From assembly GCA_021818865.1 (NCBI GenBank), contig JAKASX010000019.1, positions 1-45,088 of the forward strand: a stretch of 45,088 nt of DNA, written 5' to 3'. This document shows positions 5,683-29,245 of the stretch, piece after piece. Numbering within the stretch: position 1 is the first letter of the stretch; each line of letters begins with the position of its first letter. Origin of the DNA: Acidobacteriota bacterium (GTDB lineage Bacteria > Acidobacteriota > Terriglobia > Acidiferrales > UBA7541). A model generated the notes under the pieces. The model was not told the origin of the DNA and made no database searches. It saw only the letters and a program-made list of their open reading frames with translations. A program made the translations under genes and the position numbers.

Positions 5683-5707
5683 GCACGTCCGGGGAAACCG
5701 AGAAGCC

Positions 5708-10530: not shown

Positions 10531-10545
10531 CCGCCAGAAGGCCTC

Positions 10546-11403
10546 ATGCGTCGAGTGCTCTCCACTTATCTTTTCTCGAATCAGCCGCTCCAGCGGGACA
10601 TGCTCGCCGCCGTCGGCCGCGCCGGCATCGGCGAAATCGAGCTTTTTTCGGCCACGGGTCATTTCAACTACCGTTCAGAGGAGCATGTGCGAGAGCTCCA
10701 GCACTGGCTCGAGGCCGCCAAGCTGAGCCTCCATTCGGTTCACGCCCCGATGGATCGCAGCACCGGCCGCGGCCGCGAGGGCGGCGCGCCGATTTCCATT
10801 TCCGAACCGGACAAGCTGCGCCGGATCGAAGCGGTGGACGAATTGAAATGGGCGATGGAGATGGCCGAGCAGATTCCCTTCCGCTATTTCGTGCTGCATC
10901 TGGGCACCGGGCGCGAGCCGCTCGACGCGCGGCATCAGGACGCCGCGTTCAATTCGCTGGAATATCTGGTGGTTTTCGCCAAACAGCGGCAGGTGATGCT
11001 GGCCATCGAGAATACGCCGGGTGAACTGTCGTCTCCGCAAGCTCTGGCCGAGTTTTTGCCGCAGACGAGGCTTTCCGATTTGCGCCTTTGTTTCGACGTC
11101 GGCCACGCATCGCTCGAGGACGGCATCCAGGCTTCGTTCGATCCGATGCGCGAGCGCGTGGTGACCACGCACCTGCACGATAATCTGGGCGAGCACGACG
11201 ATCATCTGGTTCCCTTCGAAGGCAAAATCGACTGGCAAGCAGTGATGCAAACCCTCGCCGAGGCGCCGGTCGAACTGCCGCTCGTTTTTGAATTGAAGGA
11301 ACCGGCGAATGGCGGCTGGCAGAACGTGCTCGATCGGGCCGCACTCGCCTACGCGCGGCTCGAGAAACTGGCAGAGGAACGGCCCGCCGCGGAAACCGAT
11401 TGA
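10546..11403 (+). CDS. Sugar phosphate isomerase/epimerase-like TIM barrel protein
   Basis: 285 residues with the xylose-isomerase-like barrel signature: [95 protein letters not shown] and [10 protein letters not shown]. The acidic and histidine residues expected to bind a divalent metal (Glu of IENTP, Asp/His of FDVGH, His of HLHDN, Glu of FELKE) are visible. Its substrate cannot be inferred; members act on sugars, inositols or nucleic-acid lesions. It lies 15 bases after ggt and 17 before asnS, so all three may share a transcript. Confidence 0.85.
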
Positions 11404-11420
11404 AGGAGCAAAACAGACCC

Positions 11421-12722: not shown

Positions 12723-12879
12723 AGGCATCGGAGGAGGAATTCAGAGTTCGCAGTAGAGAGGATGGGGTTGTAGGACCCGGCTTCCGGGCTGGGTAACTAG
12801 CTCTCCACCGGCTTTCAACTTCCGATAGCCAATTTCCACCGGCCGACACTAGAATACGCTGCTCGAACGGAATCACCTT

Positions 12880-13791
12880 ATGGCACACAAAATCCGCATT
12901 ATCGGCGTACCGATGGACCTGGGCGCCAGCCGCCGCGGCGTGGATATGGGGCCGTCTGCGTTGCGCGTTGCCGGGCTGCAGTCGCGCATCAAACAACTCG
13001 GCCACACCGTAGAGGACGTCGGCAACGTCGCGGTGAAACAGCCCGAAGAACAACATTACGGGGACAAACACGCCAAATATCTGAAGGAAATCGCCGAAAC
13101 CTGTCTGGGGCTCGCGGCCATCGTCGAGCAGGCCCTCGCCGATGAATGCATCCCGCTCGTTCTCGGCGGCGACCATTCGCTCGCCGTCGGCTCGATTGGC
13201 GGAGCGGCCTCCCGTTTTCACAAGGAAGGCCGCCGCATTGGTTTGCTCTGGCTCGACGCCCACGGCGATATGAATACGCCGGAAATCAGCCCCTCCGGCA
13301 ACATTCATGGCATGCCGCTCGCCGCGCTGGTGGGCCACGGCGCCTCCGAGCTCACGGAGATTATGGGATTCCGCCCGATTCTCGAGCCGCGCAACGTCGC
13401 GCTGGTCGGCATTCGCGACCTTGATCATCGGGAGCAGCGCCTGATCAAGCAGACGGGCGTGCATGTCTTCACCATGCGCGACGTGGACGAACGTGGCATG
13501 CGCGAGGTGATGACGGAAGCGCTGCGCTTCGTGACCGACGACACCGCGGGCGTCGCCGTCAGTTTGGACATGGATTTCGTGGATCCCGGCGAAGCGCCTG
13601 GCGTCGGCACGCCGGTGCGCGGCGGGGTGACCTATCGCGAGGCGCATCTGGCGATGGAAATGATCGCGGATTCACGCGCGATGGTTTCGCTCGAAGTCGT
13701 CGAAATCAATCCGGTGATCGACGTTCACAACAAAACCGGCAATCTCGGCGTTGAATTGGTGCTCTCAGGCCTCGGGAAAAGAATTCTTTGA
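12880..13791 (+). CDS. rocF: Arginase
   Basis: 303 residues. It hydrolyses L-arginine to ornithine and urea with a two-manganese centre. The start IIGVPMDLGASRRGVDMGPS and the motifs LGGDHSLAVGSIG, LDAHGDMNTPEISPSGNIHG, MPLAALVGHG and VSLDMDFVDPGEAPGVGTPV hold the metal-binding His and Asp residues. The C-terminal VSLEVVEINPVIDVHNKTG is typical of arginase rather than agmatinase. A 157-bp gap after asnS contains a TAGAAT -10-like box at about 12852, so it probably has its own promoter. No other arginine gene is nearby. Confidence 0.95.
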   Translation: MAHKIRIIGVPMDLGASRRGVDMGPSALRVAGLQSRIKQLGHTVEDVGNVAVKQPEEQHYGDKHAKYLKEIAETCLGLAAIVEQALADECIPLVLGGDHSLAVGSIGGAASRFHKEGRRIGLLWLDAHGDMNTPEISPSGNIHGMPLAALVGHGASELTEIMGFRPILEPRNVALVGIRDLDHREQRLIKQTGVHVFTMRDVDERGMREVMTEALRFVTDDTAGVAVSLDMDFVDPGEAPGVGTPVRGGVTYREAHLAMEMIADSRAMVSLEVVEINPVIDVHNKTGNLGVELVLSGLGKRIL

Positions 13792-13843
13792 TGTTCAATC
13801 GTTTCCATTCCGATTCGGCGCCTTTGGGCGCCCGCAGGAACTC

Positions 13844-14974
13844 ATGACAGCCAAAAAACGCATTCGCGTCGCCGTGCTCTTCGGCGGCCGTTCGGCCGAG
13901 CACGAAGTTTCGATCGCCTCAGCTGCTTCGGTGATTCGCGCGCTCGACCTGGCGAAATATGAGGTCGTGCCCGTCGGCATCACCAAGCAAGGCCGCTGGC
14001 TCGTCGGCAGCGGCGCCGAACGGTCACTCGCCGATATCTTGCGCAAGGGCCGACCCATGTTGCTCGCTCCCGAGCCGGATGGAGACAAATTGCTGCCCCG
14101 CGACGCCCGCAAGGGCGCGGCGCCGGTTGGCATTGATGTTGTATTTCCCGTGCTGCACGGAACCTACGGCGAGGATGGCACACTCCAGGGCTTGCTCGAG
14201 CTGGCGAATTTTCCCTATATCGGCTGCGGCGTGCTCGCTTCATCGCTCGGCATGGACAAGGTGGTGCAGAAACAACTTTTCGAGCACGCCGGGCTGCCGG
14301 TAGTGAAATATCTGGCGCTGCCGCGCCCGCGGTGGGAAACCGATCCCGATTCCGTCCTCGCCGATGTGCAGCGGCGGTTCCATTTTCCCGTATTCCTCAA
14401 GCCGGCCACGCTTGGATCCTCCGTTGGCATGACCAAGGCGCACAATCTGGCCGAACTTTCCGCCGGACTCGATCTGGCCGCCGAATTCGCGCAAAAGATT
14501 CTTGTCGAGCGCGCCGTCGAGGCCCGCGAAATCGAGGTTGCCGTGCTGGGAAATGAGGATCCGCGCGCATCGGTTCCCGGCGAAATCGTTCCCCATCGCG
14601 AATTCTACGATTACGTGGCGAAATACACCGAGCCCGGCACCGACCTGCGGATTCCCGCGCCGATCGCTCCGCGGCAGGCGTCGAAAGTGCAGGATTACGC
14701 CATTCGCGCCTTTGAGGCGATTGAGGGGCGCGGGATGGCGCGTGTGGATTTCTTCCTCGAGAGCCACACCGGCCGCATTTACGTCAACGAAATCAATACG
14801 ATCCCGGGTTTCACGTCCATCAGCATGTACCCGCGGCTCTGGGAAGCCTCCGGCGTACCCTACGGTGAGTTGATTGACCGCCTTATCCAACTCGCTCTCG
14901 AGCAACACCGCGAAAAGCAGCGCACGAAGTTCTCCATCGAGCCACCGCCCGGCGGCGACGTTCTTTCCGGGTAG
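13844..14974 (+). CDS. ddl: D-alanine--D-alanine ligase
   Basis: 376 residues. This ATP-grasp enzyme makes D-Ala-D-Ala for peptidoglycan. Family motifs seen are VAVLFGGRSAEHEVSIASAA, FPVLHGTYGEDGTLQGLLEL, the ATP-grasp core KPATLGSSVGMTKA, VERAVEAREIEVAVLGN, GRGMARVDFFLE and YVNEINTIPGFTSISMYPRL. The length and the extended GVGPLLA-like region fit the longer VanA-type/Ddl group. The ATG at 13844 starts the homology; an upstream TTG would extend into unrelated sequence overlapping arginase. It lies 52 bases downstream of arginase and may be co-transcribed with it. Confidence 0.95.
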   Translation: MTAKKRIRVAVLFGGRSAEHEVSIASAASVIRALDLAKYEVVPVGITKQGRWLVGSGAERSLADILRKGRPMLLAPEPDGDKLLPRDARKGAAPVGIDVVFPVLHGTYGEDGTLQGLLELANFPYIGCGVLASSLGMDKVVQKQLFEHAGLPVVKYLALPRPRWETDPDSVLADVQRRFHFPVFLKPATLGSSVGMTKAHNLAELSAGLDLAAEFAQKILVERAVEAREIEVAVLGNEDPRASVPGEIVPHREFYDYVAKYTEPGTDLRIPAPIAPRQASKVQDYAIRAFEAIEGRGMARVDFFLESHTGRIYVNEINTIPGFTSISMYPRLWEASGVPYGELIDRLIQLALEQHREKQRTKFSIEPPPGGDVLSG

Positions 14975-15039
14975 CCGTCCGGGAAATCCTCGCACGCGAG
15001 CATTCTCTTCCGGTTTTTCTGGCTCCCATTTTTCCTGCC

Positions 15040-15089
15040 TTGACACTTTTATCCATTCGGTTAAACTTATTGACTAACCGGATAGTCAA
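15040..15089 (+). promoter_or_regulatory. Promoter and TetR-type operator of the exporter operon
   Basis: A consensus -35 TTGACA (15040-15045) is followed after 16 bases by a -10-like TAAACT (15062-15067). Just downstream, at 15070-15089, lies TTGACTAACCGGATAGTCAA, a palindrome matching its own complement at 18 of 20 positions, mismatched only at the two bases flanking the CCGG centre. It covers the expected transcription start and runs into the ribosome site (AAGGAG) of the TetR gene. This is the layout of an autoregulated TetR operon. Confidence 0.7.
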
Positions 15090-15098
15090 GGAGCCAAG

Positions 15099-15734
15099 GT
15101 GCCGCAGCCACGCACGCGCAAACAACACCCGGAAACCGCCGACCGTATCCTGGCCGCCGCCGAAGAAGCCTTCGCCGCGCACGGCCTCGCCGGCGCCCGC
15201 ACCGAACGCATCGCCGCACGAGCCGGCGTCAACAAAGCACTGCTCTATTACTATTTCCGCAGCAAGCGCGACCTCTACCGCGCCGTTTTGCGCCACTTGC
15301 TCGAGCAGCTCCACCGCACCAGCGAGCCCGGCGCCGATGCCCCGTCTTCTTCCCGCGAACAACTCGCCGGCTTCGTGAACCGCTACTTCGACTTCCTCGC
15401 GACTCATCCCAATTTTCCGCGCCTGATGCAGCGCGAGGTGATGGAATCGAAAGGGGAATTGGACTGGGTCCTGCGCGATTATTACCGGCCGCTGCTCGAA
15501 GGGCTCGTTCGTCTGATCGCGCAAGGGGTTCGCCGGGGCGAGTTCCGCCGCGTGGACCCACAGCAGTCCGCGCTGACCTTGATGGGCGCGACCACCAGCT
15601 ATTTCGCCGCGCCGCTCTGGGGCCGCTTCCTTGGCCGCGATCTTCTGGAGCCTGCCGCTCTCGAAGCGCGCCGTCACGCGCTGCTCGATTTCCTCGGCTA
15701 CGGATTGTTCCGTCCGGAAAGAGGCGAGTCATGA
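15099..15734 (+). CDS. TetR/AcrR family transcriptional regulator
   Basis: 211 residues starting at GTG, with AAGGAG six bases upstream. Residues 8-60 hold the TetR DNA-binding domain: HPETADRILAAAEEAFAAHG, ARTERIAARAGVNKALLYYY and FRSKRDLYRAVLRHLL. The C-terminal ligand domain (FVNRYFDFLATHPNFPRLMQ, RGEFRRVDPQQSALTLMG) resembles the CecR/YbiH-like group that controls HlyD-ABC exporters. The stop overlaps the start of the HlyD gene (ATGA, 15731-15734). A repressor of its own operon is inferred from the palindrome upstream; the inducer is unknown. Confidence 0.9.
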   Translation: MPQPRTRKQHPETADRILAAAEEAFAAHGLAGARTERIAARAGVNKALLYYYFRSKRDLYRAVLRHLLEQLHRTSEPGADAPSSSREQLAGFVNRYFDFLATHPNFPRLMQREVMESKGELDWVLRDYYRPLLEGLVRLIAQGVRRGEFRRVDPQQSALTLMGATTSYFAAPLWGRFLGRDLLEPAALEARRHALLDFLGYGLFRPERGES

Positions 15735-16825
15735 CCGGGCGCAAGTTTCTCGCGTTGCTTGGCACGATTTTTCTTGTCGCACTCCTCGTCTACCTCACCA
15801 CCACTCCCAGCACAAGCGAGATTCGCCTAGTTGGGGTGGTGGACGGCAACGACGTCGTGGTGAGCCCGCAGATCACGGGCCGCATGGTGAAGCTGCTGGT
15901 GGACGAGGGCTCGGTGGTGAAAAAAGGCCAGCTGATCGCCGAATTTGATCCGAGCGAACTTCAGGCGGTGCTTGCCTCGCAAACGGCTAATATCCAGACG
16001 ATCGCTTCGAATCTGGACGCGTCCCGGCGCACGCTGGTTTTGACGAACGAGCAAACATCGGCCCAGATCGCGCAGGCGGGCGCCAGCCTGACCGCAGTCC
16101 AGTCCCAACTCGCCCAGTCCCAGGCCACGCTCTGGCGCGACGAACAGACCTATCGCCGCGTGAGCGCGCTCTTTGCCAGCGGCGTCGAAAATGCTCAGGA
16201 CCGCGACAATGCGCTCGCCACCGTCCGGGCCGACCGTGCCGGGGTCAATGCGCTCGAAGACCAGGTGAAAGCGCAGCGCGCCGCGCTGGCGCTTGCGCAC
16301 GCCAATCGGCTCCAGCTGCGCGTGATTCACAGCCAGGTCGCCGCGGCCACCGCCCAACTCGCCCAAGCCCGCGCTCTGCGCGAGCAGGCCGCCATTCAAC
16401 TCGGTTACACGCGCATTTATTCACCGCTCGACGGCATCGTTTCCGTCCGCGTCGCCAAACAAGGCGAAATTGTGGCGGAGGGCTCTCCCATCGTCGTCAT
16501 CGTGGACGTCAATCACCTCTGGGTCCGCGCCGACGTCGAGGAAACGTATATCGATGCGATCCATTTTGGACAAAAACTTACCGTGGTGCTGCCATCCGGC
16601 GACCGGCTGGAAGGCACCGTCTTTTTCAAAGATGTCGAGGGCGACTACGCCACGCAGCGCGATGTCAGCCGAACCAAGCGCGACATCAAAACCTTTGCCA
16701 TCAAGGTCTCGATTCCCAATCCCCGCCTTCGACTCTTCACTGGAATGACCGCTTACGTTCTGCTTCCCCCACAGGCTTCGGCGAAGCGAAGCTGGTTCGG
16801 GCGGCTCGTCCAGAAACTCCGTTGA
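15731..16825 (+). CDS. HlyD family periplasmic adaptor (membrane fusion protein)
   Basis: 364 residues. One N-terminal membrane helix (about residues 6-22) anchors it to the inner membrane. Then come the first lipoyl half (VVVSPQITGRMVKLLVDEGS), a long alpha-helical hairpin rich in Ala/Gln (residues about 80-220), the second lipoyl half (IYSPLDGIVSVRVAKQGEIV) and a beta-barrel (LWVRADVEETYIDAIHFGQK). It is expected to link the ABC transporter to an outer-membrane channel. The order TetR-HlyD-ATPase-permease resembles E. coli YbiH(CecR)-YbhGFSR, but here with a single permease. Confidence 0.9.
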   Translation: MTGRKFLALLGTIFLVALLVYLTTTPSTSEIRLVGVVDGNDVVVSPQITGRMVKLLVDEGSVVKKGQLIAEFDPSELQAVLASQTANIQTIASNLDASRRTLVLTNEQTSAQIAQAGASLTAVQSQLAQSQATLWRDEQTYRRVSALFASGVENAQDRDNALATVRADRAGVNALEDQVKAQRAALALAHANRLQLRVIHSQVAAATAQLAQARALREQAAIQLGYTRIYSPLDGIVSVRVAKQGEIVAEGSPIVVIVDVNHLWVRADVEETYIDAIHFGQKLTVVLPSGDRLEGTVFFKDVEGDYATQRDVSRTKRDIKTFAIKVSIPNPRLRLFTGMTAYVLLPPQASAKRSWFGRLVQKLR

Positions 16826-16832
16826 GGGCGTG

Positions 16833-17813
16833 ATGAGCGCGATCGAAGTCGATGGTCTGACGAAGAAATTCGGCGATTTCGTCGCGGTGAACGACGTTTC
16901 GTTTAGCGTCGGCGAGAACGAAATTTTCGGTCTGCTCGGCCCGAACGGCGCCGGCAAGACGACGATCATTCGCATGCTCACCACGCTGACGCCGCCGACG
17001 GCCGGGAGGGCGCGCGTAGCGGGTTTCGACATCGTGCACGAACCAAACGGCGTTCGCCAGTCCATGGGCGTGATTCCCCAGGCGCTGACCTCCGATCCCG
17101 AACTCACCGCCGAGGAAAACCTCCTGATCCATGCGAAGCTCTACGGCGTTCCGCGCGCCACGCGCGAGGCCCTGGTACCAGAGTTGCTGGCAGCCGTTGA
17201 GCTGGAAAAGTTTCGTTCAGCGCTAGTGCGCACGTTTTCCGGCGGCATGCGGCGAAGGCTGGAAATCGCACGCGGGCTGATGCATTCTCCGAAGATTCTG
17301 TTTCTCGACGAGCCCACCAGCGGTCTCGATCCCGTTTCACGCACAAACGTATGGGAAATGATCGAGCGTCTTTGCCGCGAGAAGAATCTGACCATCCTAT
17401 TGACGACCCACTACATGGACGAAGCCGACAAGCTTTGCGACCGAATCGCGATTGCCGATCACGGCCGGCTGATGGCGCTCGATACGCCCAGCCGGCTCAA
17501 GGCCTCCATCCCCGGCAACGACGTGGTCGAGGCGGAATTCGATCGGGTTCCCGACGGCTGGATCGAGGAACTGAAGCGGCTTGACGGAGTGCGTTCGGTG
17601 CAGGCTCACGAGAGCGTTTTTCGGTTGTCGTCGACGGAGGGCCCGCGCACGATCGCCGCGCTCATGGAGCTGGTTCGCGAGCGCGGAAACACGTTGCGCC
17701 GGGTCAGCGTGGCCAGCACGACGCTGGACGACGTTTTTCTGCATTACACCGGGCGCGGACTGCGCGACGAACTCGGGGAAGGCCGCTACGACGTGGGCCA
17801 CCTGTATCGCTGA
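16833..17813 (+). CDS. ABC-2 type exporter, ATP-binding protein
   Basis: 326 residues. Walker A is GPNGAGKTT, the Q-loop is VIPQALTSDPELTAEEN, the signature is FSGGMRRRLEIARGLMH, Walker B is ILFLDEPTSGLDP, and the H-loop is LLTTHYMDEAD. A C-terminal extension (LDGVRSVQAHESVFRLSSTE, SVASTTLDDVFLHYTGRGLR) is typical of drug or polyketide exporter ATPases of the DrrA/YbhF kind. The ATG at 16833 directly follows a possible GTG; a GAGG site overlaps the HlyD stop. It lies 7 bases after HlyD and 18 bases before the permease. Confidence 0.95.
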   Translation: MSAIEVDGLTKKFGDFVAVNDVSFSVGENEIFGLLGPNGAGKTTIIRMLTTLTPPTAGRARVAGFDIVHEPNGVRQSMGVIPQALTSDPELTAEENLLIHAKLYGVPRATREALVPELLAAVELEKFRSALVRTFSGGMRRRLEIARGLMHSPKILFLDEPTSGLDPVSRTNVWEMIERLCREKNLTILLTTHYMDEADKLCDRIAIADHGRLMALDTPSRLKASIPGNDVVEAEFDRVPDGWIEELKRLDGVRSVQAHESVFRLSSTEGPRTIAALMELVRERGNTLRRVSVASTTLDDVFLHYTGRGLRDELGEGRYDVGHLYR

Positions 17814-17831
17814 GAAACCGGAGGCAAGCCA

Positions 17832-18950
17832 GTGAAGCTCTATCGCATCGGCGCGCTTGTGGAACGGGACATGCGGAAATTCTTCCGAAGCCCTTCGCTG
17901 ATGATGGTTTCGATGATTTTCCCGATGGTGCAGCTGATCGTGCTGGGGTACGCGTTTGGCGGGAAAATCAAGCACGTCACCGTCGCTTTCGTGAACAACG
18001 ACCACGGCGCGGAATCCGTAAAAATCCGCGAAATGCTCGATGGCATCGTCACCGGTCCGCAGACCATCCGAATCGTCGACTACTCTTCCCTGCCGAACGC
18101 CGTCCGCGACCTGAAAACCGGCATCGTTCGCGGAGTCGTCTTCGTCCCTTACGATTTCTCCTATCGGGTGGAGCATCAGGACAATCCCCGCCTCGTTTTC
18201 ATCGAGGACAATACCGACAGCTTCCTTTCGAGCACGCTACAAAGCCAGTTTCAGCTGATGGTGCAGCAGATCGACCAGCCAGCGGTCACTTCGCGCCTGC
18301 CCGCCCAGATTCAGCTGAACGTCGTCGAGGTATATCCCTATATCGAATACATCAAATATCTGCTGCCGGGCTCGATTGCGATGTCGATTTTCGTGGTCGC
18401 GATGATCGGCGGCGGCATCACGTTTATCGACGACAAATCGCGCGGCCTGCACGAAGGTTATCTGGTCACACCGATCGAAGGCGCAGAGCTGGTCCTCGGG
18501 CTGAATTTGGCGGGAGCGATCAAGGGGCTGATGGCGGGAATGGTGATCACCGCGATCGGAGGGTTGATCGCCGGCGTCGCGCACATGGACGATCCGGTGC
18601 GGCTGGGCTACCTGGCGCTCGTGTGCGGCATTGCCGCGCTGACGATGATTTCGTTCATGTTCGTCACGATGGTGCGCGTGGACGACCCGATGGTGCCGCG
18701 GGCCGTTTTCGGAGTGCTGAATACGCTGCTGTTTTTTCCCTCCGGCGCCATCTATCCCATCCAGGGATTCCCCAGATGGATGCAATGGATCGCCACAGTC
18801 GACCCGTTTTATTACGTCGTTCACGCTCTGCGCAATTTGCTCTTGAAAAATGTTGGCATCGGCGGCATCTACCAAGACTTGCTGGTGCTGATCGGCATGT
18901 CCGCACTTTTCCTCACGGCCGGCATTCTGCTCTTCAAGCGGCAACTGTAG
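17832..18950 (+). CDS. ABC-2 type exporter permease
   Basis: 372 residues. An N-terminal helix (residues about 22-42, PSLMMVSMIFPMVQLIVLGY) is followed by an extracytoplasmic domain of about 140 residues and then five helices (from about residue 180), a YbhS/YbhR-like ABC-2 membrane topology. The core holds ITFIDDKSRGLHEGYLVTPI and the late segment LFFPSGAIYPIQGFPRWMQW, FYYVVHALRNLLL. With the ATPase and HlyD adaptor it should form a tripartite exporter. A GGAG ribosome site lies about 8 bases upstream. The operon ends here, and a convergent gene follows after 62 bases. Confidence 0.92.
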   Translation: MKLYRIGALVERDMRKFFRSPSLMMVSMIFPMVQLIVLGYAFGGKIKHVTVAFVNNDHGAESVKIREMLDGIVTGPQTIRIVDYSSLPNAVRDLKTGIVRGVVFVPYDFSYRVEHQDNPRLVFIEDNTDSFLSSTLQSQFQLMVQQIDQPAVTSRLPAQIQLNVVEVYPYIEYIKYLLPGSIAMSIFVVAMIGGGITFIDDKSRGLHEGYLVTPIEGAELVLGLNLAGAIKGLMAGMVITAIGGLIAGVAHMDDPVRLGYLALVCGIAALTMISFMFVTMVRVDDPMVPRAVFGVLNTLLFFPSGAIYPIQGFPRWMQWIATVDPFYYVVHALRNLLLKNVGIGGIYQDLLVLIGMSALFLTAGILLFKRQL

Positions 18951-18995
18951 CGAAAAAGCCGCAAACAGGCTTACGTTGATTTCGGGAGGATTTCC

Positions 18996-19012
18996 AGCCG
19001 GGATTTCCGGCT
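18996..19012. terminator. Possible bidirectional terminator hairpin between convergent genes
   Basis: AGCCGG and CCGGCT form a 6-bp stem around a GATTT loop, followed on the plus strand by TTTAG. It sits between the converging permease and phosphatase genes. The stem is short and the T-run weak, so this is tentative. Confidence 0.35.
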
Positions 19013-20671: not shown

Positions 20672-21789
20672 GGGCGTGGTTTATATGCCTCATCCCAGAA
20701 CAGTAGTTTCGCCCCGGGTCTCGTTATCTTAGGCGAAGCGGGCTGGCAAGTAAACCTCCGCGAATCAGAAATGTGAGGGCAAAGCGAGGATGCCCGATTT
20801 GCGGAAAATGGTGTTGGCCGTTTGTGTCGGTGGAGGGCCGGTGGAACGGGCACGAATCGGACGAACCGGCGATGAAGCGATCGGCTGGAAACGCTTCGGG
20901 AAACCATGCGTGGCAGATTTTCGAGGAACAGACGGCCCGGACGGCGCGAAAAATGAGACAAAAACGGCGATTGAAATTGGGTGCCGCAGGGTGTCACGGG
21001 TTGTCGAGCATAAATTCCGATAAGCGGCGTTTTTTCAACGACGTAATTTTTCCAGGGTGTCACTTTTTGAGGCACTTCTGAGTGGACTTCGGAGCGCGAA
21101 ACGTCCGCGCCGGCGCGTGGGGCGCTTGCCCGGATCGCGGAATCGCTGCACGAGGCGGAGGGTGACACTCGCGGAACCTCGGGGAATGGGTTTCTTTCTC
21201 TTGGGAGCCCAGTATTTTCAATGGAATACGAGCTGTTGCGTGGGCGATGGAGGGCGTCACGAGAGTAGTGTTCTGTTTCTTCCCGAATCGCTCGAACGCC
21301 GCGTTGGTATTGGGGATTTGTTGATCGAGCGGATTTGGGTAGGTCACCCTGGGGCGTTGCCGCTGCCGTGGACTCGAATGGAATGGCGACGGAAGTTCGG
21401 ACCATGAGTTTGCTTCTCCAACTGCTCCCCGGCATGTGATGCTTCCTTCTGCGTGCGGATAAAAGCCGCGGTTTTTCCCGGACGCAACGGCATTTTCGCG
21501 CGATGCGAATGCGAGCGCGAGGGGTGGGTCTACGTAAGGAGGCGAGGGGGAGTTGCGGCGATCCGAACATGCCTGTTATCCGGCAGCGAGCTCGAGATCG
21601 GAACTGGCTTGCGCTCATCGGTACTGGCGCTTTTGTGCGGCCGGAGTCTTTTGCCTCGCTGGCGAGGGCGGCGACATGGATCTCTATGGTGTGGGCCCTG
21701 AGTACCTGGGTCGTCCGGCTATCGCCCTTGAAGTGACCGGCGGCCTCTTCGTCGGCGGGGGCGAGGATCAGCCTTCGCTCGCCCGTCTG
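20672..21789. other. Decayed or non-coding stretch at the left border of the accessory island
   Basis: About 1.1 kb with no gene I can recognise on either strand. One minus-strand frame stays open through all of it, but its translation after the transposase fragment has no family features, and plus-strand frames are equally open, as expected in GC-rich DNA. It probably holds insertion-sequence debris. The motif GGGTGTCAC recurs several times, without any clear arrangement. Confidence 0.5.
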
Positions 21790-22029
21790 TATTGAGGGGG
21801 CGAAGAGGAGCTTCATTGCGTCGGCCATGACCTTGTTCTTCTGCGCAGACTTCGGTTTTCCGGTGTGCGCCCACGCTTCGCATAGGAGGCGCGGCGGCAG
21901 GTTTGCATGGAACCCCGCCACCTGATTGCGTCGCAATCGTTTCCGCAGAACGGCGCGACCTTCCACATCCGCCCCGTGAACCTGAGAAGCATTCTTGGCA
22001 GGGTCCAGACCAATCGTGGCTGTCTTCAT
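21790..22029 (-). pseudogene. IS110-family transposase, N-terminal fragment
   Basis: From the ATG at 22029 the minus strand reads MKTATIGLDPAKNASQVHGA, then DVEGRAVLRKRLRRNQV, FHANLPPRLLCEAWAHT and KNKVMADAM. This matches the DEDD/RuvC-like N-terminal domain of IS110 transposases: the first Asp in GLDPAKN, Glu in CEAWAH and the later ADA. The spacing after CEAWAH is already shortened, and the similarity fades after about 80-100 codons. No C-terminal domain follows on this strand. A separate C-terminal IS110 fragment lies on the opposite strand at 27.7-28.1 kb. The end of the fragment is an estimate. Confidence 0.7.
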
Positions 22030-22204
22030 GGATGTCCCGCCCCGGGGTGCGACGAAGCTTACTGCTTGCGGCCGGGGCTGGGATGGGTCCATTCCATTGG
22101 GTCGGCCGGTGCGCTGAGGGACGATCTCTGCCTGTCGCGACGTTGGGACGTGTCCCCGCGCGTTGTCTCCAGCGGCTGGCCGTCTCCCGACATCGTGTTG
22201 CTAA

Positions 22205-24244
22205 CTAGTGCACACGCGTGGCTCTGCGGCGGGGGACGCCAAGCATTTCCAACCATTCGTCAGTGCTGATAGACCGCTCGATATCTGTTTCTGAGAGGGA
22301 GTTCACCACGTCATCGAACACTAGGCCGCGTTCTTTTAGCTTTTGATGAATCCTTTGCTCAATCGTGTTCTGCGTCCAGAAACTGTAGACGTTGACGCCA
22401 CGCTGCTGACCATGCCGGTGAGTACGATCTTCGGCCTGCCACATCGTTGCCGGATTCCACCAGTGATCGAAATGGAAAACGTAATTCGCCTCAGTCAGCG
22501 TCAGTCCGAGTCCGCCGGTCTTTAACGTTGCCAAAAGAACGCTCGTGCCGCTATCCGACCGGAATCTACTGATCTCCTTTTCCCGTGCGGCATCGCTCAG
22601 ACCGCCCTTGAGCACCGCAACGCCGAATGGCTTTAGCAAAGGCACGAGTCTTGCCACGCCATATTCATCAACCCACTGCGTAAAGACCAACGCTTTGTGC
22701 CCGTTGTCCTTAATCGTCTTGAGAAATTCTAGAAGCGCTTCCGATTTGGGACTTGAGGTCTTGTCAGATGCGAAATTGCATACACGCTTTAGCTTGGTGA
22801 TCACGGCGAAGATGTGAGTTTTTGTAACTTGCTCCCCCAACTCCGTCAGTTCGCGTGCACCCCCCTGTAAAACGCGCTCATATTCCGCTCGCTGGTCCGC
22901 ATCCAGTTCCATCCAGCACTCTTGCTTGATCTTCGGCGGGAGGTCTTGAAGGACGTCCTTCTTCATGCGGCGAAGGAAGTATGGTTGCATCAAGCGTTTC
23001 GCTTCACCGGCAGAGACGTTGTAGTGCATGTATTTGGGTTTAACGAAGCTAAAGATTCCGGCGAGGTCTTCGACCTTTGTCTCAACTGGGGTGCCCGTCA
23101 ATGCCCAGCGGAATGTAGGCGATGGCCGTTTCACTGCTCGGCTACGGCTGGTATCAGGATTTTTGATGTATTGCGCTTCATCCAATATAACGGCATCGAA
23201 ACTACCAATCACGGAATCATCAACAAGCGCCTCCGATGTAGGCAGTTCCTCGAATGGTGTTTGGCAATATGGACAAATGAATCGTGGTGTCTGCTCGTCC
23301 GTAAGATGGACTTTATTACCGAAGGAAGAGGTCCGCTGGCATGCCTTGCACTTGATCTCGGCCTTTTTCTTAACGACGGTGAGAAAGTCGGATGACAGCG
23401 TGTCGTAGGCCGCCACGTATACGTGGGCTGGAAACTTCCAATCTAGCTGCCTTTCGTCTCTGGTTCCGCGAACGACCGTAAAACTCAATTCGGGGGCCCA
23501 TCTTTGCAGGTGGTCCTGCCAAACCTTCAGGACACTAACCGGACACACAATCAACGCCTTTGTGGTGGCACCAGTTTGAAACAAAACTCTCAAGGCAACG
23601 ACGGTTATGACCGTCTTGCCCGTTCCCATTTCATCGCCCAGAAGGGCGGAGTTGTGCTCGACGAGGAACTTCACGCCAACTTGCTGGTAGGGGCGCAGGT
23701 GGTTCAACACGTCGACGTCGGGTGAGAATTCAACTGCAATGGGGGGCTGGAGTGTCGGGTAAATCAAGTCCCAGATCGACAAGCTGGTGATTGTCTGCGT
23801 CGAGAGGCCGTACGCGTTCTTCGTCCGCGAGTACGCTTTAGCAAATCCATTCTGGTCAACTGACTTGGGAGTCGATGCTGACGGACCCTTTCTGTTGCGG
23901 GCCGTGTAGTCCACGCCGACAAGGCCCGCTGTGTCCAGCGGCTCGAACAGGTTTCCAGATACCCACGTTTTCGATAGGTCAGGGAGTTCGGGAGCGAAGG
24001 CATGGGAGGTTAATGTCGTGAATGGCGAAAGCAGCGACGTTCCAACAATCGAAAACACCAAATCAGCCGACACCGTCGTGCTCTGAGAGAGCGTGGCATT
24101 CGTAATCCTGTAGACGCCTGCGCGCGTGACCGGAGCGAAAGGCGGGTATTCAACGTGAACGGGAGGAAACGCGACCGAGACTGGATGGGCGACAGATGCG
24201 GGCAGCGGGGCTATCAGCCTTGCTAGGCGACGAACAAGATTCAC
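22205..24244 (-). CDS. SNF2-family DEAD/DEAH-box helicase with inserted zinc ribbon
   Basis: 679 residues from a GTG start at 24244, which overlaps the preceding stop by 4 bases (GTGA). The N-terminal 170 residues match nothing I know. The Snf2 motor follows: YQQVGVKFLVEHNSALLGDE with Walker A EMGTGKT, motif II LDEAQYIKN, motif III LTGTPVETKVEDL, then the C-terminal lobe with LVFTQWVDEYGVARL, LKTGGLGLTLTEANYVFHFD, HWWNPATMWQAEDRTHRHGQ. Between motifs Ia and II is a zinc ribbon: CKAC near residue 300 and CPYC about 33 residues later. It is an ATP-driven DNA translocase. With Mrr and HNH nucleases next door a defence role is likely but not proven. Base composition is visibly less GC-rich than the flanks, which suggests transfer. 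Confidence 0.88.
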   Translation of the reverse strand: MNLVRRLARLIAPLPASVAHPVSVAFPPVHVEYPPFAPVTRAGVYRITNATLSQSTTVSADLVFSIVGTSLLSPFTTLTSHAFAPELPDLSKTWVSGNLFEPLDTAGLVGVDYTARNRKGPSASTPKSVDQNGFAKAYSRTKNAYGLSTQTITSLSIWDLIYPTLQPPIAVEFSPDVDVLNHLRPYQQVGVKFLVEHNSALLGDEMGTGKTVITVVALRVLFQTGATTKALIVCPVSVLKVWQDHLQRWAPELSFTVVRGTRDERQLDWKFPAHVYVAAYDTLSSDFLTVVKKKAEIKCKACQRTSSFGNKVHLTDEQTPRFICPYCQTPFEELPTSEALVDDSVIGSFDAVILDEAQYIKNPDTSRSRAVKRPSPTFRWALTGTPVETKVEDLAGIFSFVKPKYMHYNVSAGEAKRLMQPYFLRRMKKDVLQDLPPKIKQECWMELDADQRAEYERVLQGGARELTELGEQVTKTHIFAVITKLKRVCNFASDKTSSPKSEALLEFLKTIKDNGHKALVFTQWVDEYGVARLVPLLKPFGVAVLKGGLSDAAREKEISRFRSDSGTSVLLATLKTGGLGLTLTEANYVFHFDHWWNPATMWQAEDRTHRHGQQRGVNVYSFWTQNTIEQRIHQKLKERGLVFDDVVNSLSETDIERSISTDEWLEMLGVPRRRATRVH

Positions 24245-24792
24245 TTTGCTTCACCAATCTTCTGTTGGTGGACTTGCTCCAGAGCGGTGAGCACGCGGTG
24301 AAACGGTTCTAGAAGGTCAAAGCGGTTAAATACCTGCGTCAGAAGGGGGACCGAGGCTCCAATATCGTCCCCAAAATCTCTATGAGCCACGAGCACCACT
24401 GGCTCGAACTGGCCTGAGTTTGACGATAGCAATGTCGTGCGCTTCTCGTCAGAATCAGAAGAGGAGAAATCGAGACCGCTTTCTTTTGTCACTTGCAGGA
24501 TGGGCACGCTAGCCTTCGCACGGAGCCACAAAAGGTCTGGGTCTTCGACGAGAACCACAGACGGCGGCTGTTTAAGCGAGTTGAAGAGCGGAACGCCGAT
24601 AAGTTCGACCATGACGTGGCGCTGCAGCATTGTGCCATAGAGCACCGTCTGCAAACTCGTGGGGCGAATTGGGTTGGTGCAGCGGAACTCAAGTGGCTTC
24701 GTATCGATATCTGTCAGCAACAACGCTCCACGAATCGCCTTGTCTGAATCGAATTTGCGTGAAGCCAAGAACAAGAGTTGTGAGTCAGCCAT
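24241..24792 (-). CDS. Unknown protein coupled to the SNF2 helicase
   Basis: 183 residues from the ATG at 24792, chosen for the AGGAG site 8 bases upstream. It begins MADSQLLFLASRKFDSDKAI and is a mixed alpha/beta, soluble protein, without a signal peptide, membrane helix or cysteine cluster. Notable segments are FRCTNPIRPTSLQTVLYGTM, VELIGVPLFNSLKQPPSVVL and a Ser/Asp-rich stretch (LDFSSSDSDEK). The C-terminus is helical (FHRVLTALEQVHQQ). I do not recognise the family. The 4-base overlap with the helicase start shows that the two are translated together, so it is probably a partner, specificity or loading subunit of the helicase. Confidence 0.8.
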   Translation of the reverse strand: MADSQLLFLASRKFDSDKAIRGALLLTDIDTKPLEFRCTNPIRPTSLQTVLYGTMLQRHVMVELIGVPLFNSLKQPPSVVLVEDPDLLWLRAKASVPILQVTKESGLDFSSSDSDEKRTTLLSSNSGQFEPVVLVAHRDFGDDIGASVPLLTQVFNRFDLLEPFHRVLTALEQVHQQKIGEAK

Positions 24793-24811
24793 CTGGACAC
24801 TCCTGCGAGGA

Positions 24812-24840
24812 AGCCTACTCTGGGCTAGTGCAGGCGTCAA
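24812..24840 (-). promoter_or_regulatory. Putative promoter of the helicase operon
   Basis: On the minus strand TTGACG (24840-24835) and TAGGCT (24817-24812) are 17 bases apart, 20 bases upstream of the ATG at 24792. The -35 box is good, the -10 box weak. Confidence 0.4.
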
Positions 24841-24961
24841 TCGGTGAAGGCAGTGCGGGTCGTGACTGATAAGGCTTTAAGCGTTCTGGGCGGGATGGCT
24901 GCGCGACTGCGGCACCGTCCTCTTGTCATTCGCGGCGTGTCCGTGATAGTTTTCGCCACGC

Positions 24962-25771
24962 ATGTTGCCAAAGCAGAGCGACATTGAAATTCCGCTGTTA
25001 AGGACCCTCGCGGAGATGGGGGGACGCGGAGTTCCTCGGGACATCTATCCACGCGTTCGTCAGTTCTTTCCGAGTGTGACGGATGCCGACGTTGCCGAGA
25101 CCCTGGTGAGCGGCGGAAACAAGTGGGCCAACCGCATTCAGTGGGTCCGGCAGCACTTGATTTCCCGGGGCGAAGTGGAGAGCGCGGGGCACGGGGTCTG
25201 GGCAATCACGGAGAAGGGGCGCGCCAGGCTCGGTGCTGTGGAGAAAGAGCGGAGTGCTCCCGCTCCGGCCACGTCGTTTAACCTCGAAGAGCTGGCCGAA
25301 GAATACTCGGCCGCGTTTCATGATAAGGTGCTTCAAAAGCTTCAGGACCTAACGCCCCAGCAATTCGAGCGCTTCGCCAACGCCTTGCTCGAGGCGTACG
25401 GTTTTAGTGAGATGCATGTCACTGGCAAGGCGGGTGACGGCGGGATTGATGGGAGCGGGAAGCTCCGGGTTGGCCTGGCCACGATGGACGTGGCATTCCA
25501 ATGCAAGCGTTGGCAGGGGATGGTGGGTCGCCCGGAGATCGATAAGTTCCGAGGGGCGATTTCCGGTGAGTTCCAACAGGGCATCTTTTTCACAACGTCC
25601 GATTTTTCCGGCCCGGCCCGCGACGCATCCATCAAAAAGGGCGCGGTGCCGATTGTGTTGCTAAACGGCGACAGCATCGTGCGGCTGATGGTGGAAAAGG
25701 GACTTGGCGTAAAACGCCGGCCCGTCGAAATCTTTGAGGATCAGATCGAGAGCATCTTTGAGCAGGAATGA
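24962..25771 (+). CDS. Mrr-type restriction endonuclease
   Basis: 269 residues. An N-terminal Mrr_N winged helix (residues 1-85; IEIPLLRTLAEMGGRGVPRD, WANRIQWVRQHLISRGEVES, GVWAITEKGRARL) is joined to a Mrr_cat PD-(D/E)xK nuclease: LTPQQFERFANALLEAYGFS, AGDGGIDGSGKL with Asp163, VAFQCKRWQG with Gln180 and Lys182. This is the D-(x)n-QxK form typical of Mrr. Enzymes of this family cut DNA with methylated or otherwise modified bases. The gene is divergent from the helicase pair (169 bp between starts). A TTGTCA and a GATAGT box lie just upstream; no clear ribosome site is seen. No methyltransferase is near, which fits modification-dependent restriction. Confidence 0.9.
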   Translation: MLPKQSDIEIPLLRTLAEMGGRGVPRDIYPRVRQFFPSVTDADVAETLVSGGNKWANRIQWVRQHLISRGEVESAGHGVWAITEKGRARLGAVEKERSAPAPATSFNLEELAEEYSAAFHDKVLQKLQDLTPQQFERFANALLEAYGFSEMHVTGKAGDGGIDGSGKLRVGLATMDVAFQCKRWQGMVGRPEIDKFRGAISGEFQQGIFFTTSDFSGPARDASIKKGAVPIVLLNGDSIVRLMVEKGLGVKRRPVEIFEDQIESIFEQE

Positions 25772-25850
25772 TTCCTTGGTTCGCCGCGTCGGATTGTTCG
25801 CGCCTCGGACATGTTAGGGTGTCGCGCATCTTGAGTGAAGGCCACGATAA

Positions 25851-26771
25851 TTGAGGCTTTACGTAGCCATCACGGACTCGGACTGGTTCAACTACCTGTC
25901 AGAACTGCGCCCTGACGAAGTGAATTTCTGGCAACCCAGCGCGTCCGGGTCGTTCCACGCCCTCTCGCCGGGAGAGCCCCTTCTTTTTAAGCTGCACAGC
26001 CCCCACAACTACATCGTCGGGGGCGGCTTTTTCGGCCACTACGCCGTGTTCCCCGTGAGCTTCGCGTGGGCAGCATTTGGTACGAAGAACGGGGCGGCGA
26101 CCGAAGCAGAAATGCGGCGTAGGATTGAGCGATACAGACGCATCGCGGCCGGCGAGACATCAGATTATCTGGTCGGCTGCATCCTCTTGGAGGGCCCGTT
26201 TTTCTTCGGCCGTGATGAGTGGGTTCCCGCTTCGGACTGGAGCAGAGAGATCGTACGCGGCAAAGGTTATACGACCGAGGACGGGACCGGATGGCGAATG
26301 TGGAATGAAGTAGAGCTCCGTCTCAAGGCAAAGGGAGCACTGCTTCCCGAGCCGGAGATGGTGAAGGGCGTGCAGTTTGGCCAGCCTCAGGTGATTGTGC
26401 CCCGCTTGGGGCAGGGCTCATTCAGGGCTATTGTCACGGACATCTACAAACGCCGGTGCGCGGTTACGAATTCCCATGTGCTCCACGTTCTGGACGCGGC
26501 GCACATCAGGCCGGTCGCCGCGCAGGGTAGCCACAGCCCTAGCAACGGGCTATTGCTCAGGCAGGATGTCCACACGCTGTTTGATCTTGGCTATTTGACA
26601 GTGACGCCGGATTTTCATCTCGAAGTCAGCCACAAGATCAAGGAAGAATTCGACAATGGGAAGGAATACTACGCGCTACAAGGGAAGAAGATTCTTCTTC
26701 CCGAATCGTCCGCCCTATGGCCGTCGAAGGCGCAACTCGATTGGCACAATCAGCATGTATATCGGCCCTGA
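25851..26771 (+). CDS. HNH endonuclease with N-terminal PUA/EVE-like domain
   Basis: 306 residues from a TTG start; no ATG is near and GAAGG lies about 10 bases upstream. The N-terminal part (residues 1-160; FWQPSASGSFHALSPGEPLL, FKLHSPHNYIVGGGFFGHYA) has the look of a PUA/EVE-like fold, often used to read modified bases. The C-terminal part is an HNH_2-type nuclease: YKRRCAVTNSHVLHVLDAAH, IRPVAAQGSHSPSNGLLLRQ, DVHTLFDLGYLTV, with the DAAHI histidine, the Asn of SNGLLL and the His of DVHTLFD. McrA-like, modification-dependent cleavage is inferred. It lies 79 bases after Mrr on the same strand. Confidence 0.85.
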   Translation: MRLYVAITDSDWFNYLSELRPDEVNFWQPSASGSFHALSPGEPLLFKLHSPHNYIVGGGFFGHYAVFPVSFAWAAFGTKNGAATEAEMRRRIERYRRIAAGETSDYLVGCILLEGPFFFGRDEWVPASDWSREIVRGKGYTTEDGTGWRMWNEVELRLKAKGALLPEPEMVKGVQFGQPQVIVPRLGQGSFRAIVTDIYKRRCAVTNSHVLHVLDAAHIRPVAAQGSHSPSNGLLLRQDVHTLFDLGYLTVTPDFHLEVSHKIKEEFDNGKEYYALQGKKILLPESSALWPSKAQLDWHNQHVYRP

Positions 26772-26815
26772 GCGTGGGATTCATGTTCCGGCCTTCACGA
26801 ATGGCGGGCGGCTAA

Positions 26816-26882
26816 GGTTTAGCCGGTTCATTTTTTGATGGCGCATGCGCGTTGGGGTGATGGCTTGGAGCGGGCGGCACGG
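26816..26882. repeat. Imperfect direct repeat, copy A
   Basis: Starts GGTTTAGCCGGTTC and continues through GCGTTGGGGTGATGGCTTGG. Copy B is at 27118-27180. The copies differ at scattered positions and by small indels. Confidence 0.6.
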
Positions 26883-26911
26883 GGAGTGAGGCGTGGGGAA
26901 AGCAGATCCCT

Positions 26912-26931
26912 CCCGACTGGGAAGCGTCGGG
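26912..26931. repeat. Stem-loop repeat, copy 1 (CCCGAC...GTCGGG)
   Basis: Stem CCCGAC/GTCGGG with 8-base loop TGGGAAGC, followed by ACTTC. Homologous copy at 27425-27444 has a compensatory stem change. Confidence 0.55.
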
Positions 26932-27015
26932 ACTTCCTCTGGCCGTCGCCACAGGCGTGGCTCGGGATGACCAGGCTTGATGGCGGAGGGCTGGGCGAAG
27001 GAGGGCCGGGCTTCA

Positions 27016-27029
27016 GGGGCTAAAGCCCC
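27016..27029. repeat. REP-like hairpin
   Basis: GGGGCT-AA-AGCCCC followed by TTGCTAT. It belongs to a set of palindromes in this window with a stem and a short C/T-A tail. Confidence 0.5.
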
Positions 27030-27117
27030 TTGCTATCACGGCTTTTAATGTCGGAGCTCCCGATTTCTTCGGGACGGGTTCCGCTCCGGCCCCCGCAAGC
27101 ACCGAGCGGGTGACTGC

Positions 27118-27180
27118 GGTTTGGCCGGTTCGTTTTTCACGGCGTGTGCGTTGGGATGATGACTCGGAGCGAGCGACGGC
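27118..27180. repeat. Imperfect direct repeat, copy B
   Basis: Starts GGTTTGGCCGGTTC and continues through GCGTTGGGATGATGACTCGG. Homologous to 26816-26882, in the same direction. Confidence 0.6.
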
Positions 27181-27312
27181 GGTGAGATTCTCGCGGGTTG
27201 GGCGGTCTTCGTTCGCCGCGCGGGCGAAGGTGGGGATTTTCGGTTCTTTCCGTGCCGGGAACTTAAGGCGGTGCTGCGGGCGCGGGGACCGGCAGTACAC
27301 TTTTTAGGGGCT

Positions 27313-27332
27313 GGGCACGCGGCAGCGTGCCC
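27313..27332. repeat. REP-like hairpin
   Basis: GGGCACGC and GCGTGCCC form a perfect 8-bp stem around a GGCA loop, followed by CTACCAG. Same general design as the other palindromes in the window. Confidence 0.55.
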
Positions 27333-27424
27333 CTACCAGGGTTTCCACAAGCGGGGCTCGGGATGACTAGGTTCGGTGGCGGTGGCCCGCCTACGCTGAA
27401 GCTACGGCGCGACAAGCCCGCCTT

Positions 27425-27444
27425 CCCGATTGGGATGCATCGGG
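27425..27444. repeat. Stem-loop repeat, copy 2 (CCCGAT...ATCGGG)
   Basis: Stem CCCGAT/ATCGGG with loop TGGGATGC, followed by ACTTC. Compared with 26912-26931, the closing C-G pair has become T-A on both arms. Confidence 0.55.
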
Positions 27445-27508
27445 ACTTCTCGTTGAGGGTGATCGGTGGCGCGTCTTGCGCTCGCGAGGAAATACGCAGG
27501 GGCACAGT

Positions 27509-27562
27509 CCCGATGGAAGGCGCGACCCCGATAGAGGGCACGGCCCCGATAAAGGGCATCGG
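27509..27562. repeat. Tandem repeat, 3 x 18 bp
   Basis: Three adjacent 18-bp units: CCCGATGGAAGGCGCGAC, CCCGATAGAGGGCACGGC and CCCGATAAAGGGCATCGG. In the frame of the transposase fragment they read PDGRRD, PDRGHG, PDKGHR. Confidence 0.85.
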
Positions 27563-27622
27563 GGCGCAAAAAGCGCGGGTGCTAAAAACGCAGGTGCAAA
27601 AAGCGCAGATGCGAAGGACGCA
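27563..27622. repeat. Tandem repeat, 4 x 15 bp
   Basis: Directly follows the 18-bp array. Units: GGCGCAAAAAGCGCG, GGTGCTAAAAACGCA, GGTGCAAAAAGCGCA, GATGCGAAGGACGCA. In the transposase frame they read GAKSA, GAKNA, GAKSA, DAKDA. Confidence 0.85.
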
Positions 27623-28404
27623 GATGATGGCGCTACAACGTTCCGAAAACGGAAGCCGATAGCGAGGACCTCGAGAGCCAACATCCGCACCCTTTGCGGA
27701 CGGCGCAAGGAGTTGATGACACAGCCGGGTGTGGGACCGATCACGTTGCTGGCGTTTGTGCTGACCCTGGGCGATGTGCGGCGCTTCCCGCGCGGCAAGC
27801 AGGTGGCCAGCTATCTGGGGCTGATCCCGCGGGAGTACAGTTCGGGCGGGAAACAGCGGCTGGGCTCGATCAGCAAACAGGGGAATCGTTTTATGCGGAT
27901 GCTGTTGGTGGAAGCGGCGCAGATTGCCGTGCGCTCGGATCCGCAGATGAGAAGCGAATATTTGCACCGCTGCCAGCGAAAGGCCAAAGCAGTGGCCAAG
28001 GTGGCGGCGGCGCGGAAGTTGGCGGTTCGGCTCTACTGGATGCTGAAGACGAACACCGGCTATCCAGAGGTCGTTCGTGTCGAGAGCAGTTCGCGGGTGC
28101 CGCTGGTCGGCGAAAGCTAGACCGGAGAGTTGATTGGGCGCTCTCGTCCCGGTGACAAGCCGGGATTCGCATAGAAGAATCATGGCCGCAGTCCAGGCCG
28201 TATCGATGGCTGGCGGGATGACCGCCGGATTTGATTCGACGCCGAGAGATTCAGAGCTTCGGTCCTCCGCCTGCTCCGACTTCCCAGCGGTGCTCGAAAA
28301 CACCGCGGCACACACGTGTCTCTTGACAACGCCTTCGTTCTTATCGAGCGGCACCCGGAAGTGCAAAGTGAGCCGCGAACGGCTGCATGGGCCGGCGTGG
28401 GAGC

Positions 28405-28484
28405 ACGAGCGAAGGCGCCACGCTCGCAAGCCGGGCATGGGCGCACGAGCGAAGGCGCCACGCTCGCAAGCCGGGCATGGGCGC
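28405..28484. repeat. Tandem duplication, 2 x 40 bp
   Basis: Two identical 40-bp units (28405-28444 and 28445-28484), each starting ACGAGCGAAGGCGCCACGCT and ending GGGCATGGGCGC. Perfect identity suggests a recent event or an assembly artefact. Confidence 0.9.
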
Positions 28485-28523
28485 CCTTGAAACCACGGAC
28501 AAAACGCCGGTTGGCCGCCGCCC

Positions 28524-28540
28524 GCAGGCTGGAAGCCCGC
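28524..28540. repeat. REP-like hairpin
   Basis: GCAGGCTGGAAGCCCGC, an imperfect palindrome followed by GCCACCC. Same design as the other REP-like elements. Confidence 0.4.
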
Positions 28541-28606
28541 GCCACCCGGCTTGATGGATTCGTTTCGGCAGCCGCGCTTGCCGCTGGCGATGAAGGAGCG
28601 CCGGGG

Positions 28607-29245
28607 TCAGTTCCTGGTTTCGGAGGGAGAGCGGCCGGCGAGCAGGCGAAGGCCGGTCTTCAAATCGAATGCGAGATCGGCGGCGCGGCCCAGGCGGCGC
28701 GCGGCAGCGGGAATTCGTTCGGGTTCGGACAAAACGATTTCCAGATTTTCCAGAATGGCGCCGAGCAGGCGAAGCGCTTCCTCCGGGAAGCCGTCGGGAT
28801 CGGGCAGCCAGTTGCATTCGGGAGCGCGGGCCGCCGCGGCATCGGCTTCCTCAATTCGGCGGTCAATTTCCTGCTCGCAACCGAGCGCGCGCTCGACGAG
28901 AGCGAGGGCGAGCGGCAGGAACGAGGCGTCGCGATACACGAAATCGGCGCGGCCGGCAGCGACCAGAGGAGCGATGCGAAACGCTCCTTCGCGATTGCCG
29001 ATGCCCACCACGGGACCGCACCAGGAAAATTCCTCGGTGAGAGCGGCGAGCGAGGCGCCATCAAGAAACGGCTCGTCGAGCAGGATGAGCAAGGGGAACT
29101 GCTGGCGCTGGCCGAGCTAGGCGCGGGCGCGATCGACCGATTCCGCGGGCCAGATCTGGCAGCCGCGGGCGTCGCGCATGGCGAGCGAGCGCAATCCGCG
29201 GATCAGCTCGGCGTCGCGCGTGATGGCAAGCAGCCAGCCGGTCAT
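28607..29245 (-). pseudogene. Pseudo-receiver protein interrupted by an in-frame amber codon
   Basis: From the ATG at 29245 the minus strand reads MTGWLLAITRDAELIRGLRS for 42 codons, then TAG (29119-29117), then continues in the same frame with LGQRQQFPLLILLDEPFLDG and on to the stop at 28607. Read through, it makes about 212 residues with a receiver-like fold: VDRARA-x-LGQRQQFP then LLILLDEPFLDG (phosphoacceptor-like Asp strand), VVGIGNREGAFRIAPLVAAG and ADFVYRDASFLPLALALVER. The acidic pair at the N-terminus and the Lys of active receivers are not evident, so it may be a pseudo-receiver. It follows the hybrid histidine kinase gene on the same strand by about 180 bases. Either a nonsense-mutated gene, a sequencing error, or amber readthrough. 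Confidence 0.65.

Follow-up and report, generated by a model that had tools for sequence, protein, structure and literature searches.

A gene for a 183-aa protein with a predicted endonuclease V (EndoV)-like fold, followed by a gene for a helicase of one particular SNF2 subfamily, forms a conserved pair that was found at 16 distinct loci in eight phyla (one archaeon included), always in this order. On balance, the pair is likely to be a conserved two-gene DNA-targeting module that consists of an EndoV-like recognizer and an SNF2 translocase and is directed most likely against foreign DNA. SNF2-nuclease proteins recur in bacterial immunity, and, to our knowledge, little is understood of how they select the DNA that they act on; an EndoV-fold partner fixed to a single SNF2 subfamily across eight phyla represents a concrete and testable candidate for the DNA sensor. 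At the same time, an unannotated protein family gains a predicted fold and two conserved gene contexts. Of the original prediction, a possible defense set of four genes, the grouping held for the helicase and the 183-aa protein and failed for the Mrr and HNH nucleases encoded next to them.

Gene organization of the locus

The pair lies in the window (the whole stretch of Acidobacteriota DNA analyzed here, 45,088 nucleotides in length), divergently from the genes for an Mrr-type endonuclease and an HNH nuclease (Table 1). All four genes were found where they had been predicted, with the SNF2, Mrr, and HNH domains confirmed by Pfam matches; each has relatives in other genomes, so all four open reading frames (ORFs) are genuine genes. 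The proposed translational coupling of the 183-aa ORF to the helicase gene is real, because the TGA stop codon of the former overlaps the GTG start codon of the latter (GTGA). The lower GC content attributed to this block is likewise apparent (0.54-0.56 across 22-25 kb versus ~0.62 in the surroundings), and no methyltransferase was noticed among the ORFs read at 17-31 kb, as had been stated. With regard to the two IS110 transposase fragments said to flank the block, the right one is certain, with a Pfam match; the left one is IS110-looking by eye and has none.

The 7-kb stretch with all four genes is a variable island that is missing in close relatives. In a genome of the same genus (G002), the two genes that flank the island are directly adjacent; named by eye, one of them encodes a histidine kinase and the other a phosphatase-like protein that begins with an FHA domain. 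The closest relative (G003; phosphatase 96% identical) matches the window up to position ~21541 and again from ~28607, with unrelated DNA in between.

Table 1. Features of the variable island and their positions in the window
Feature	Position	Strand	Remarks
Variable island, limits approximate	21541-28607		Missing in G002; unrelated DNA in G003
Decayed IS110-like N-terminal remnant (MKTATIGLDPAKN...)	21651-22092	(-)	By eye only; no Pfam match
SNF2/Rad54-type helicase, 679 aa	22205-24244	(-)	GTG start; zinc ribbon within motor; no C-terminal nuclease; gene 2 of conserved pair
183-aa protein, predicted EndoV/DUF99-like RNase H fold, probably non-catalytic	24241-24792	(-)	Gene 1 of conserved pair
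Standalone Mrr-type endonuclease	24962-25771	(+)	Mrr_N winged helix and Mrr_cat; divergent from helicase pair
Nuclease with PUA-superfamily (ASCH/EVE-like) domain, by predicted fold, and HNH, 306 aa	25851-26771	(+)	TTG start; solitary type IV-like
C-terminal remnant of an IS110-family transposase	27476-28120	(+)	Transposase_20, 2.8e-28

Conservation and distribution of the gene pair

When 84,980 species genomes were scanned with a three-sequence alignment of the 183-aa protein, 15 loci were returned, 14 of them with an SNF2 helicase gene directly downstream; at locus L058 the contig end cuts off the downstream side. These numbers favor the helicase context, because the patterns used in the scan were taken from helicase-linked copies. 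One of the 15 loci, in the same-class genome G099, was also the sole further copy detected in a search of about 200 related genomes, and a phylum-wide search revealed another in G208; the helicase gene is located downstream in both. The 14 scan loci, the window, and G208 together make up the 16 pair loci, which come from Acidobacteriota, Chloroflexota, WOR-3, Actinomycetota, Aquificota, Bacillota, Planctomycetota, and Bathyarchaeota, although single phylum assignments may be wrong because all scan loci belong to metagenome-assembled genomes. The genes of the pair mostly overlap or lie ≤20 bp apart. The proposed check, whether the 183-aa protein always precedes an SNF2 helicase, gave a positive answer at the 16 loci; a sister branch of the family instead heads operons with FHA, GGDEF, and kinase genes (see below).

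The 183-aa partner is specific to one SNF2 subfamily. A search of the phylum with the profile of this subfamily gave scores of 778 bits in G000 (777.7 bits for the window helicase) and 735 bits in G208, followed by values of ≤418 bits from generic SNF2 proteins that match the profile over the motor only. Among the best 29 SNF2 loci of the phylum besides the window, the 183-aa gene was present only in G208, at a subfamily-level score, and was not found beside the 28 others. Nor was it seen next to any of the SNF2 genes examined in viral contigs (80 loci), and a search of limited sensitivity found no relatives of the 183-aa protein in plasmids, phages, or viral contigs. The distribution of the pair is sporadic and scattered across phyla.

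Predicted fold and conserved residues of the 183-aa protein

The 183-aa protein, which had been described as unknown, has no match in Pfam, NCBIfam, or PADLOC. Its AlphaFold model (15 homologues; pLDDT 90.8, pTM 0.87) predicts an RNase H fold of the EndoV/DUF99 type: the nearest solved fold is endonuclease V (3ga2; Z 13.6 over 171 residues, 3.7 Å), followed by the DUF99 protein 2qh9 (Z 13.3, 149 residues) and then by the Argonaute PIWI and UvrC RNase H domains (Z ~9-10). The similarity to Endonuclease V and DUF99/Endo_dU extends to the “EP.R” motif of a C-terminal helix. A search of the 183-aa protein for the corresponding families, PF04493 and PF01949, gave no family at E ≤ 1, and profile alignment gave no proof of kinship of the 183-aa family with EndoV or DUF99 (a weak E of 0.04, compared to 0.023 for the accepted DUF99-EndoV pair used as the positive control); the link to EndoV rests on the fold.

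Unlike in these enzymes, the catalytic acidic residues are not conserved in the 183-aa family; the gene for the 183-aa protein also differs in being located in an operon with an SNF2 motor. The three RNase H/EndoV positions, which were placed by eye from the secondary structure and not from superposed coordinates, are acidic in 4/15, 0/15, and 3/15 rows of the alignment, and the second of them is an invariant glutamine, Gln48. The other invariant residues are Glu35, Tyr52, Glu162, and Arg166. Recognition, rather than cutting, is the likeliest role for the 183-aa protein. Nevertheless, the lack of conserved acidic residues need not mean that it is inactive: the DEDD site of DUF99 proteins is incomplete, and they cleave deoxyuridine-containing DNA at that base (PMC11585767).

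The SNF2 helicase and its C-terminal domains

The window helicase, a compact SNF2 protein, contains the SNF2-rel_dom (9e-42) and Helicase_C (1e-19) domains of Pfam, and the best solved relative of its motor is the Snf2/Rad54-family helicase 1z63. Its N-terminal part comprises ~170 aa. The zinc ribbon inside the motor, pointed out in the original prediction, is there (C-x2-C ... C-x2-C between the helicase motifs); in this family, only the window helicase and those of L034, L046, and L048 have it, and it is therefore not a defining trait.

The C-terminal regions of these helicases vary. Of those with a complete C terminus (14, including the window), six carry an Mrr_cat domain that keeps the GxD...QCK catalytic motif, one carries a DnaJ domain, and seven, the window helicase among them, have no such domain. 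The six fusions lend indirect support to a helicase-Mrr association. On the other hand, no Mrr gene was found in the examined flanking DNA of the helicases that lack a nuclease domain; as these constitute about one-half of the family, cleavage cannot be universal.

Relationship to known defense systems

Among the known systems, a close parallel is provided by the type I Zorya protein ZorD, in which, as in the six fused homologues of the window helicase, an SNF2 motor is followed by a C-terminal Mrr-like nuclease. ZorD was the best PADLOC match of those fused helicases that were scanned (about 240-274 bits), and their motor and Mrr parts could be aligned end to end with some ZorD models. However, the long N-terminal part of ZorD is missing, also in the fused forms; the window helicase, which carries no nuclease domain, scores 134 bits against the NCBIfam NF041790 equivalog cutoff of 1500; and the partner of the SNF2 helicase is an EndoV-like protein. 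None of the ORFs read at 17-31 kb was noticed to encode ZorA or ZorB (MotA/MotB-like) or ZorC. Assignment to the DISARM protein DrmD is similarly contradicted by scores of 67.7 and 51.4 bits against equivalog cutoffs of 610 and 950 bits, respectively. A nuclease domain fused to an Snf2 helicase reportedly takes part in phage defense in Halomonas meridiana, to judge from the title of a 2024 paper by Liu.

Defense-type genes do adjoin some of the pairs: DUF499/Swt1-HEPN and integrase genes at L046, an N6/N4 methylase gene at L047, and genes for DUF1156 and an SNF2-NOV_C helicase at L054. DUF499 and DUF1156 are components of the BREX-related DUF1156-DUF499-SWI2/SNF2-nuclease defense loci, in which an SNF2 motor is joined to a PD-(D/E)XK nuclease (PMC7641849, PMC12839542); these loci are not known to include an EndoV-like partner. 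Near the window pair, no gene for DUF499, DUF1156, or any other methyltransferase was noticed in the ORFs read. A search of the open-access literature found no paper on an SNF2-EndoV-like pair, which is probably undescribed, yet within the known SNF2-nuclease kind.

Possible functions of the pair

In the proposed DNA-targeting module, the 183-aa protein would bind or sense DNA at bases that are damaged or modified, at branched structures, or at DNA ends; co-translated with the Rad54-like SNF2 translocase of double-stranded DNA, it would load or license the latter. In many relatives, the C-terminal Mrr nuclease of the translocase could then cut the engaged DNA. The window helicase, which would have lost such a nuclease or never had it, might depend on one acting in trans, possibly the neighboring Mrr, or might act by remodeling or stalling. 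Defense appears likelier than repair: it is favored by the location in a variable island, the scatter across phyla, the Mrr fusions, and the DUF499/Swt1-HEPN, DUF1156, and methylase neighbors, and is weakened by the occurrence of pairs among ordinary metabolic genes (L052 and L053 in Aquificota, L057 in Planctomycetota, and L060) and by the signaling paralogues.

A more far-reaching version can be offered tentatively. By analogy with short Argonautes, a catalytically dead EndoV-fold recognition subunit, a relative of the PIWI-like RNase H domains, might load a Rad54-like SNF2 translocase-Mrr nuclease in a cross-phylum system, with the same family redeployed in the FHA/GGDEF/kinase operons.

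A role in DNA repair or genome maintenance, with the EndoV-like protein marking deaminated or damaged bases, the translocase remodeling the DNA, and the fused Mrr domain trimming it, would agree with the nearest folds, both of which belong to deamination-repair enzymes, EndoV and DUF99/Endo_dU (PMC11585767). It would also suit the Snf2/Rad54-family relative of the motor and the housekeeping neighborhoods of several copies. Such a role, although a serious alternative, is nonetheless less likely, given the sporadic distribution (one other copy in about 200 relatives), the island location in this genome, the lack of conserved catalytic acidic residues, and the defense-type neighbors at L046, L047, and L054.

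The sister branch brings in a further possibility. In several other families detected in the phylum search, a relative of the 183-aa protein heads an operon that also encodes a ~260-aa protein, FHA-GGDEF proteins, and a Ser/Thr kinase, a context that is nearly universal in one family, f33. This points to a general adaptor more than to a defense sensor, and the 183-aa family could accordingly be seen as an FHA/kinase-controlled adaptor whose helicase partner remodels nucleoprotein or transcription complexes. For the helicase-linked copies, such phospho-signaling or regulation seems distinctly improbable: neither kinase nor FHA genes were noticed next to those that were read, the helicase-linked and signaling contexts separate fully in the tree (support 100/99), and fusion to an Mrr nuclease is ill suited to regulation. 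Comparison of the ~260-aa protein with the helicase N terminus, its suspected counterpart, using hhalign returned nothing, and this identification was rejected.

The Mrr and PUA-HNH nucleases

Joint action of the helicase, the 183-aa protein, Mrr, and PUA-HNH could be argued from their adjacency in one island, from divergent promoters that could be shared, and from the Mrr_cat fusions of homologous helicases, but it is very improbable, as both nucleases come from families that stand alone and neither Mrr together with HNH nor either of them with the pair was found at any other locus searched, which argues against a four-gene system. The co-occurrence of Mrr and HNH, suggested as a check, was looked for directly: the two shared no plasmid record and were never adjoining in 201 related genomes. 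Likewise, the DNA flanking the other helicase pairs contained no Mrr gene. Instead, each nuclease would be a solitary restriction enzyme in its own right, brought together with the proposed DNA-targeting module in one variable island.

By its sequence, the window Mrr is an ordinary solitary type IV-like enzyme, independent of the pair. It has the same Mrr_N plus Mrr_cat architecture (3e-17 and 1.2e-25, respectively, above the Pfam cutoffs) and GxD...QxK motif, here GGID...QCK, as the Mrr type IV restriction endonucleases, with no notable difference. Its origin as a split-off of the helicase-fused domain was considered and rejected, since it is nearer to the standalone Mrr proteins (40-43% identity) than to the fused domains, five of which were matched (25-33%).

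The PUA-HNH protein, similarly, is an ordinary solitary type IV-like enzyme that is independent of the pair. Its HNH_2 domain was recognized in Pfam (1.3e-11), and the PUA/EVE-like front domain ascribed to it is borne out, with moderate confidence, by the predicted fold (AlphaFold pLDDT ~80 for residues 1-160; the HNH part is poorly modeled). The best matches of the N-terminal domain (residues 1-172) are ASCH (Z 12.8) and VcaM4I (Z 9.7), and YTH domains are also matched; the protein thus resembles the EVE-HNH enzyme VcaM4I in joining a PUA-superfamily front to HNH and differs from it in that its N-terminal domain is nearer to ASCH than to EVE. Its relatives, 39-63% identical, come from other genomes and from viral contigs, where their gene surroundings are unrelated.

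Gene neighborhoods of the pair and its relatives

Two homologous loci place the pair (the 183-aa EndoV/DUF99-like protein and the SNF2 helicase) next to components of DUF1156-DUF499-SNF2 systems: DUF499/Swt1-HEPN in L046, and a second SNF2 helicase with NOV_C together with a DUF1156 methyltransferase in L054. The pair in L046 might occupy the SNF2 slot of such a system. At its C-terminus, the helicase homologue of L046 carries a DnaJ domain (Pfam E value of 1e-10) rather than a Mrr nuclease. The actinobacterial contig L049 lacks the fused nuclease, and a NYN/PIN-like gene, recognized by eye, lies just downstream of its helicase.

In the phylum relatives L036, L037, L039, L040, L041, and L043, a 183-aa-like protein is encoded in a conserved operon together with an unknown protein of ∼260 aa, and Pfam matched neither of them. 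One or two FHA-GGDEF proteins and a HEAT-repeat Ser/Thr kinase complete the operon. This operon was found in most of family f33. In L038, type III CRISPR-like component genes (identified by eye) directly follow the 183-aa-like gene and its partner.

Insertion site of the island

The phosphatase/histidine kinase junction, compared between the window and L253, looks like an insertion hot spot. The site is empty in the same-genus genome G002 and carries cargo other than that of the window in G003, the closest relative. A short tandem repeat lies at the island's right edge.

Coordinates of the features discussed
Feature	Locus	Positions	Repeat unit
Island	Window	21541-28607	
Same junction	L253	3458-11214	
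Tandem repeat	Window	28397-28490	∼45 bp (gagcgaaggcgccacgctcgcaagccgggcatgggcgc)
Helicase homologue with DnaJ end	L046	8538-11192	
NYN/PIN-like gene	L049	3199-3546	
Locus of the 183-aa-like gene with type III CRISPR-like genes	L038 (G376:C184)	3000-19000
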